Source: Oasisia sp. SBJ-2009 (lineage: Eukaryota > Annelida > Polychaeta > Sabellida > Siboglinidae). From it: 64,000 nt of DNA. This document shows positions 45,701-48,700 of this stretch, one piece after another; the stretch's first letter is position 1, and each line of letters opens with the position of its first letter. A program made the position numbers and the translations under genes. A model generated the notes under the pieces. The model ran no database searches. It saw only the letters and a program-made list of their open reading frames with translations, and was not told the origin of the DNA. The stretch lies in contig OZ024858.1 in the NCBI GenBank assembly GCA_964017155.1, forward strand, positions 22,801,157 through 22,865,156. Reading direction: 5' to 3'.

Positions 45701-48700
45701 CCAGCTTGTTTTGTTGTCAACTGATGATTGTTACATAAATAACTATTGGTCAAGTATGGTTCTCTACTGGAATCATAGCTTTATGCAGAGACCCGTCCTC
45801 CCATCATTTAGATGGGTAAAAACCGTTGTGGACGGATAGAAATATGGGTGGACGGGTAAAAAAAATGAAGGCGCAAAGTCTTCCCAAACCATAGATATTG
45901 TCAGTGAGTGTAAGTGGTGTCACATGTATCTTTGTAGTCCATTCCATGTCATCAGACACATTTTAAAGTTTGTAAACTGGCTTAACAGTTAACATCCATG
46001 TGTCCACCAAAACAAGTGTGACTGGCAATAATTTGATCCTGTATAAAGTCCTGACTGCAATGATGGTGATAATAAATAGCATTATGTCAAGCTGACATTG
46101 GTTGATACCTTGTGGTCCTTGCCGTCCACTTCGAAGACAGAGATAGTTCCCTTGCGGTAGATCTCCTTGCCTGGCGGATGTCTCATGATACATTCACTCT
46201 GTCGGCAAACATGCACAGTTCACCATCAAATACATGGTTCATCAACAAACACATACGACAGTTTATCACCATGCACACACCACACTTAATCATCAAACAC
46301 ACACCACACTTAATCATCAAACACACACTATAGTTCGTCATCAAACACACAAATCGATATTAAGCACAGTTACTTAGCATACAAAGTTCACCATCAAACA
46401 CACTATGGTTCACCAGCAAACATGCATGGTTCATTAAACACACACGGTTCAGCATCAAACACACATGGTTCACCATAAAACTAACACAGTTCACTCTCAA
46501 ACACACGGGTTTCACTATAAAACACAAACAGTTCATCGTCCTCTAGTACAGTGTCTTCCCGAGTTCCCCGAAGTTTGAGACAAATTCAAGATGCAGTTTT
46601 TGGCAGGCAGAGCTGGAGATGATTCACGACATAGAACCGAGCTTGAATTTTTTTTCTTTCTGAAGTTTGTGATTACAATGCTTTGAACGGGGCTCTATAT
46701 AAAAATTTAGAAATGTATTATTAATAGTATTAATATTAATTATATAAGCAATTGGCATTGACAAATATAATTTTGTTTCTATGCTATATTTACCTGGTGA
46801 TACCTGTATGTCTTCTACGTCATATTTACCTGGTGATACCTGTATGTCTTCTACGTCACATTTACCTGGTGATACCTGTATGTCTTCTACGTCATATTTA
46901 CCTGGTGATACCTGTATGTCTTCTACGTCATATTTACCTGGTGATACCTGTATGTCTTCTACGTCACATTTACCTGGTGATACCTGTATGTCTTCTACGT
47001 CATATTTACCTGGTGATACATGTATGTCTTCTACGTCACATTTACCTGGTGATACCTGTATGTCTTCTACGTCATATTTACCTGGTGATACCTGTATGTC
47101 TTCTACGTCACATTTACCTGGTGATACCTGTATGTCTTCTACGTCATATTTACCTGGTGATACCTGTATGTCTTCTACGTCATATTTACCTGGTGATACC
47201 TGTATGTCTTCTACGTCACATTTACCTGGTGATACCTGTATGTCTTCTACGTCATATTTACCTGGTGATACCTGTATGTCTTCTACGTCATATTTACCTG
47301 GTGATACCTGTATGTCTTCTACGTCATATTTACCTGGTGATACCTGTATGTCTTCTATGTCATATTTACCTGGTGATACCTGTATGTCTTCTACGTCATA
47401 TTTACCTGGTGATACCTGTTTGTCTTTTATGTCATATTTACCTGGTGATACCTGTATGTCTTCTACATCATATTTACCTGGTGATACCTGTTTGTCTTTT
47501 ATGTCATATTTACCTGGTGATACCTGTATGTCTTCGCCAGTCGCATATACTTCAGACAGAACTCACAGACGTACAACATGGGCACTTTGCCATATTCTTC
47601 TGGGTACGGAGAAAAGTACCACGCATCGATCTCATATCGCCCAATTTGAACTTTGTCAATATATTTCACTTTGGTGATCTGTAATAAAGTGACGTGGGCA
47701 CTAGTCACACACTCCTGTATATTCAAAGACTGATCAATTTAAACTTGAACAAACATAAAAAGTACAACAACTGTATATATCACTGTTTGCTTAGTTTTAG
47801 CTGCTCCAGAACTATACCTACTCCATTAATAAACTACAGGCATGTATAATATATATATGAGTACGATAATCCTAAACTGTGTCTTGACATTACCGATGTG
47901 TTCATCACATCTGAGAGTATCTGCTAACAAGCTCAGTTAACTGTATAAAATGGCTCATATGTGAATATGTTAGGCATTTGTTGTGTATTTTGATTCAATT
48001 ATGGCCTCAAAATGTTTTCTTTGTGACACAAAAATGTGGGCACTTTTGTTTACAAGAACTGAAAGTGGGAACAATATATATGGCGGAATGTCATAGTAAT
48101 GTATTGCAAGTATGTAACAAAAATTGTTAAGGCAAAGTTTGATGAAGGAAACATGTATGACTGTGATATGACATAAGTTTCTGGATCCATCAAATAGCTT
48201 TGTTAGACATAAAGTGTGTAACGTACGGCCTCGTGTTCTTTCTCCAAGGCTGCTGTTGTTGGATCCATCTCTGCATACGACTGAAACATAACAACACACA
48301 TAAAGACAGGCACCCTCCCAACTTCAACTGTAGGTGGCGTCTGACTCATACTACGTGAAACCTATGGTACTGTAAAAATGCAAAGATTATTGCTTTCAAC
48401 ATTAATACCATTGTCACATCATTATTGCAGCATGATAAATACTTAATAAAAACATTTTTAATTTTGATGACTATAATCATTGCTAACATTTAAAAACATC
48501 AAAACATTTATGTTTCTCAGAAATGTCCTAAATATAATATTCTGAGATGTCATTGGATTCATGTCAAACACAAAGGCCACAGAAAAGGCAGCAAATACAC
48601 ATAGAATTCCACAGGATTATTTCACCTACGGAACTGTAGTTTTGTTGGTAATGTTTACACATACCTTTTGTACATGGTTGATTTCATCATGTTTTCGTTT

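Follow-up and report, generated by a model that had tools for sequence, protein, structure and literature searches.

Tandem repeats that span exon-intron boundaries have been described in amphioxus under the name of "mirages", at both 5' and 3' boundaries in the Adh3 and globin genes (available text of PMC3087553). The globin genes concerned are BflGb6 and BflGb9 (PMC3087553, PMC3902484), to which TnC and PGBD5 have been added (PMC3902484, as far as its text is accessible). According to the same portion of PMC3087553, mirages are unstable in length, and reverse transcription PCR suggests that they are regularly spliced. The human IFI6 (6-16) gene harbors a minisatellite with multiple splice donors, two downstream units of which are reported to be used as donors and to give rise to isoforms (Turri 1995), while intron gain by internal duplication of AG/GT is attributed to Rogers in the available text of PMC3087553. 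Among annelids, earthworm metallothionein genes carry minisatellites within intron 1, the accessible part of that report mentioning no repeat at a junction, and no junction minisatellite in an annelid was recognized among the titles and abstract openings of the open-licence literature. Here we describe a 36-bp minisatellite that overlaps the splice donor of exon 5 of KAT8 (MYST1) in a 64,000-nucleotide stretch of the siboglinid annelid Oasisia sp. SBJ-2009 (contig OZ024858.1, positions 22,801,157 to 22,865,156; hereafter the window).

Like the mirages, as these are described in the text available, the KAT8 array keeps the authentic junction beside copies of it, many units retain AG/GT signals, and its unit of 36 bp compares with mirage units of 10 to 72 bp (Adh3) to about 160 bp; unlike them, it lies in another phylum and comprises 21 units. 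Length instability and regular splicing are features reported for amphioxus in the same text, whereas the KAT8 array is known from the DNA of one haplotype. As in IFI6, the minisatellite sits at the end of an exon and its units supply additional splice donors, but each intronic KAT8 unit brings an in-frame stop, and the decoys cannot lengthen the KAT8 protein. That a segment of exon carrying splice signals has been duplicated in tandem also recalls the intron gain by AG/GT duplication outlined in PMC3087553; intron 5, however, need not derive from the array, because the homologous position is occupied by an intron in a MYST paralogue (see below). The KAT8 array belongs to a kind already known from amphioxus mirages and human IFI6, and such repeats are apparently recurrent in its own genome.

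KAT8 and the repeat at its exon 5 donor

The predicted protein contains MOZ_SAS, zf-MYST and Tudor-knot domains (Pfam); it combines a chromo-barrel, a MYST zinc finger and MOZ_SAS, and its nearest relative among MYST proteins is KAT8. Exon 5 scores 79.7 to 87.3 bits against the PDB sequences that bear the name KAT8 or MYST1 (16 distinct ones) and at most 59.1 bits against KAT7, KAT5 (HTATIP) and KAT6A in the PDB. Among the best 120 of 7981 protein matches, the nearest named protein is KAT8 of the tubeworm Lamellibrachia satsuma (99% identity, 81% of the query), and all remaining matches have at most 84% identity; this one protein match marks the host as probably a vestimentiferan. With the MOZ_SAS profile, 13 exons are matched in the 764-Mb, 33-contig genome, distributed over four loci; one is the KAT8 of the window, and the other three, judged by eye, are further MYST genes.

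The placement of the exon 5 end, on which the interpretation turns, was checked by protein alignment. Human KAT8 aligns with residues 1 to 54 of the 55 encoded by exon 5 (E 2e-24), and the L. satsuma protein shows no difference across the join of exons 5 and 6; since the joined translation matches across the junction, the end of exon 5 is fixed at 47514. The initial annotation had proposed that this donor was amplified 21 times into a 36-bp minisatellite born from the exon-intron junction, with the authentic site as the terminal member, and this view held up. A direct scan of the minus strand finds 21 CACCAGGTAAAT sites spaced by exactly 36 in 20/20 intervals, and Tandem Repeats Finder (TRF) calls a 36-bp period at 46786-47535 (20.8 copies, 96% matches). 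The tandem unit thus spans the boundary as in a mirage: the 5'-most unit holds the authentic junction, and the 20 further units all lie inside intron 5 (1315 nt). Cut at the donor, the unit consists of GAAGACATACAGGTATCACCAG (22 nt of exon 5) and the 14 nt opening intron 5; the 22 exonic bases were given correctly in the earlier description, the 11 intronic bases were not. Because the 22 repeated bases encode the conserved tail of the KAT8 zinc finger, the reading that exon 5 is the parent of the array and that the intronic units are copies is supported at the level of sequence.

The units differ on average by 4.0% in pairwise comparison, 8 of the 36 columns vary, and the donor 12-mer is invariant in 21/21 units. 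The distal and the second units each show three differences from the common unit. Variants are ordered along the array (alternating types beside the exon, A/G at column 29), which gives only a hint of turnover. Beyond the distal copy, the intron has GAAACA in place of the GAAGAC with which a further unit would begin; the 3 nt shared at what is presumed to be the breakpoint of the founding event are too few to carry much weight. The array sequence has a single match in its own genome, and among the 21 longer-period arrays checked in the window, AGGTAA is present only in those of KAT8 exons 5 and 9.

Short reads have difficulty with some 750 bp of units that are 96% identical, and an aberrantly assembled mirage is mentioned for the amphioxus draft in the accessible text of PMC3087553. 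That the repeat is real but wrong in copy number or arrangement nevertheless seems quite improbable, given the order of its unit variants and the many similar arrays across the same assembly.

Because the unit length is divisible by three, three of the six frames are open across the array (312, 314 and 309 aa). A coding role was rejected, as the minus-strand open frame is out of frame with exon 5, and the Pfam matches of this frame (SHIPPO-rpt at 5e-18 and four others) were dismissed as repeat artefacts. The frame encodes a 12-aa repeat at 46624-47562 (minus strand), where automatic annotation could place a false gene.

Predicted strength and fate of the decoy donors

Predictions of U1 pairing and local alignments covered the donors of KAT8 exons 2 to 9 and the acceptors of exons 3 to 10. 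The authentic exon 5 donor is predicted to pair with U1 at -8.3 kcal/mol, the second strongest of the eight donors, and the prediction is equal for 20/20 decoys; the expectation of about 20 near-identical decoys beside the real site was therefore borne out. No GT as strong was found in the other seven KAT8 introns computed, and outside the array such sites occur at about 0.5 per kb of the window.

Reading past the real donor had been expected to give V-N-M-T and a stop. This is right for the first unit, and each of the 20 intronic units stops at the fifth codon in the exon frame (VNMT*, VNMM* or VNVT*); as previously predicted, decoy use should therefore be non-productive. Productive downstream donors yielding a longer protein, of the IFI6 type, were not found, as all 20 units carry the stop. 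From decoy 1 to decoy 20, the array stop ends 21 to 705 nt upstream of the decoy junction and 111 to 795 nt upstream of the exon 6/7 junction. Nonsense-mediated decay follows a 50-55 nt rule; judged by these distances, every decoy product is a predicted decay target.

Twenty donors matching the real one in strength, a stop in every intronic unit and an invariant donor 12-mer might suggest a regulatory decoy, in which KAT8 output is tuned either by competition of the array for U1 or by decoy splicing, at a set frequency, into transcripts that bear the stop. In a rotation test, however, the invariance of the eight donor columns tested was not significant (p 0.25), the donor columns of six other arrays showed no constraint, and like arrays occur at unrelated genes, which makes such a role quite unlikely. 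In all seven arrays, variation is neither higher nor lower in the donor columns than in the others; selection that keeps or purges decoys is unsupported, the columns being neither constrained nor purged.

Junction repeats elsewhere in KAT8 and in the genome

When KAT8 junctions were aligned locally with their own introns, two of the eight donor junctions proved to be duplicated: that of exon 5 scored 37 and that of exon 9 scored 20, where 100 shuffles reached no more than 12 and 11.5; none of the eight acceptor junctions was duplicated. The exon 9 donor is present twice in tandem, with degraded copies further into intron 9 (Table 1). Read-through of this donor (40494-40512) gives KDLR and a stop, and the L. 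satsuma KAT8 record terminates at KDLR. As the record ends where donor read-through meets the stop, the L. satsuma gene model probably ran through the exon 9 donor and is truncated. The MYST paralogue L016 has a 21-bp, two-copy donor duplication (1239-1280) at the junction homologous to KAT8 intron 5 (RRHA/AKC, the slash marking the boundary here and in Table 1).

Donor-motif arrays were sought genome-wide as three AGGTAAGT spaced 12-42, which gave 581+729 matches. From the matches listed, ten distinct arrays (L048 to L057), all on contig C1, were considered, and ten frames from nine loci (none from L048) were picked by eye rather than blind. Three of the ten sampled arrays start at exon ends with Pfam support; in the EGF_CA array (L054), AGGTAAGT is kept in 78 of the 99 units scored. 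There is no overall excess of donor motifs in arrays genome-wide (581+729 against 821+798 for the reversed motif), both totals being dominated by large arrays. A reversed-motif control took the left edges of ten loci; of 20 frames of at least 40 aa, ten from seven loci were sent to Pfam, and no match above the cut-off was obtained, the best being a domain of unknown function (E 0.0047). The control is weak: L118 and L121 have almost no sequence before the array, and donor motifs occur in L118 (CAGGTGAG units) and L114 (CAGGTGAGTG units).

A broader sample came from myosin-head exons. Twenty of 78 matches had internal stops and were dropped, and 55 of the remaining 58 were surveyed, comprising all 35 with an open frame up to 250 and 20 of the 23 above; the first rule was set before fetching, the second after the first set had been seen. 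Exon edges here are the ends of Pfam matches rather than annotated junctions, and the 55 stretches are not independent, some overlapping or sharing a gene. Counting TRF arrays with a period of at least 10 that lie across an edge, 7 of the 110 sampled edges are crossed, 3/55 on donor sides and 4/55 on acceptor sides. The weakest crossing is that of L075 (78% matches, 2.1 copies), for which an alignment test put the acceptor elsewhere and found no duplication. Array coverage in the first 35 stretches amounts to 20.9% within 600 nt downstream of exons, 13.6% within 600 nt upstream and 1.8% inside the exon matches, compared with 6.5% for the whole window. Crossing of myosin edges is no commoner than would be expected from random array placement in such repeat-rich introns, and no splicing-linked mechanism of array birth is therefore needed.

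Donor-side arrays starting 1 to 22 nt past the myosin match were seen at L072, L073, L091, L092 and L093. There are hints, noticed after the fact, of extra array births near donors, a possible hot spot.

Also in the window, KAT8 intron 8 contains a 1027-aa open frame on the strand of the gene (41109-44192, minus), by eye a non-LTR (non-long-terminal-repeat) retrotransposon reverse transcriptase, and long simple repeats are found at 29940-30397 (CGTC x115) and 50994-51387 (GTGTGC x66).

Table 1. KAT8 features in the window and repeat arrays at exon edges elsewhere in the genome
Feature	Positions	Strand	Details
KAT8 (MYST1) gene	39798..50812	minus	ten coding exons, 447 aa; joined exons stop-free to the end
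KAT8 exon 1	50635-50812	minus	
KAT8 exon 2	49415-49492	minus	
KAT8 exon 3	48665-48840	minus	
KAT8 exon 4	48227-48280	minus	
KAT8 exon 5 (ITKVKY..TYRYHQ)	47514-47678	minus	165 nt, phase 0 at both ends; last 22 nt parent of the repeat
Authentic donor GT of intron 5	47512..47513	minus	CACCAG/GTAAAT
36-bp x21 array	46780..47535	minus	unit of 22 exonic and 14 intronic bases; real exon 5 junction in 5'-most unit (47500-47535)
Twenty intronic decoy units	46780..47499	minus	first intron base of decoy donors at 47477, then every 36 bp to 46793
KAT8 exon 6 (SECIMRH..DGKDHK)	46109-46198	minus	acceptor ttgccgacag/AGTGAA
KAT8 exon 7	45285-45425	minus	
KAT8 exon 8	44557-44650	minus	
KAT8 exon 9	40494-40644	minus	
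Exon 9 donor duplication, 32 bp x2	40449..40512	minus	authentic 40481-40512, copy 40449-40480, each CAG/GTAATATACACAA
Degraded exon 9 copies, intron 9	40334..40455	minus	40421-40455 83% to 40536-40570; 40334-40352 84% to 40494-40512
KAT8 exon 10	39798-40014	minus	
L049, formin FH2 exon end			44 bp x14; E 4.2e-5, below Pfam curated cut-off
L050, EGF exon end			41 bp x6.8; best E 5.4e-4, below Pfam curated cut-off
L054, EGF_CA exon end			46 bp x101.6; E 5.6e-11, above Pfam curated cut-off
L056, polybromo-like exon, then array			20 bp x21; lone PDB match polybromo-1, E 0.12 (weak)
L057, open frame, then array			25 bp x46.8; no PDB or Pfam match
L052, L055, exon-end arrays			graded possible
L048, L051			graded unclear
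L053, array preceding likely acceptor of opposite-strand gene			by eye
Myosin exons, donor-side crossings			L074, 53 bp x8.1; L105, 20 bp x29.9; L112, 92 bp x2.2
Myosin exons, acceptor-side crossings			L075, 52 bp x2.1; L090, 20 bp x30.3; L092, 46 bp x4.0; L097, 45 bp x13.0
L106, marginal, outside the seven crossings			12 bp x2.7, 2 nt into myosin match
L086, outside the seven			28-nt donor duplicate, 389 nt away
L084, L072, outside the seven			short two-copy resemblances
L105, L110 upstream arrays, outside the seven			end 2 and 9 nt before exon edge
L109, outside the seven			tandem alternative exon

Origin and significance of the array

We consider it probable that the KAT8 array is a slippage-born junction repeat, one of many such in the genome, that is tolerated since the first donor wins. 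A short tandem duplication would have taken the last 22 bases of exon 5 and the first 14 of intron 5; its origin in the junction is evident in the sequence, and the mutational process would have been replication slippage or unequal exchange. The unit would then have expanded within the intron, the coding copy remaining as the 5'-most unit. Most likely it is still the first donor that the spliceosome uses, which may be favored by being transcribed first and by adjoining the unique body of exon 5. Occasional decoy transcripts, all with an early stop, would be expected to go by nonsense-mediated decay, and the 20 decoys would be tolerated as near-neutral baggage, the arrays being a mutational by-product. 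We count in favor of this reading the exon end fixed by protein, the 21 exactly spaced donors, their equal U1 pairing, the stops in 20/20 units, the exon 9 and paralogue duplications, the arrays at other exon ends, the 7/110 myosin edges, the lack of constraint or purging in the donor columns of seven arrays and the regular splicing that the amphioxus authors report for such repeats.

Some points weigh against it. First-donor use is inferred from genomic sequence, and the column test is weak, being limited to rotations, with few mutations per array and low power. In minigenes with duplicated donors, the acceptor-proximal donor is favored in some settings, a preference that would make the array costly. 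Together with the equal predicted U1 pairing of all 21 donors, these results would fit frequent use of the intronic copies, above all the last, with much or most KAT8 RNA non-productive in this animal or allele. Yet the KAT8 frame is intact, MOZ_SAS matches indicate a single KAT8 locus, and selection would be expected to act against a strong loss; the amphioxus cases, moreover, splice regularly according to their authors (PMC3087553, in the text available). We regard such frequent use as very improbable and retain tolerance of the array through use of the first donor.

More broadly, we narrowly favor the proposition that splice junctions in this genome are routinely amplified into minisatellites, with several percent of exon edges, donor and acceptor, bearing tandem decoys (about 100 copies in the case of the EGF_CA exon), that splicing reliably picks the terminal authentic copy, and that the arrays are raw material for exon and intron change. 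If so, the genome would amount to a natural large-scale experiment in duplicated splice sites. Engineered minigenes are the usual means of studying how one of several identical donors is chosen. Here KAT8, a gene expected to be essential, presents 21 identical donors in series, and further arrays in the same genome, some on donors and some on acceptors, range from 2 units to about 100. From counts of junction reads over these arrays, the rule by which position determines splice-site choice could be measured in a living animal. The arrays also bear on whether mirages, which the sources accessible to us describe in amphioxus only, provide a more widespread path by which exons and introns change, and the natural series of decoy arrays surrounding KAT8 is of more value than KAT8 itself.
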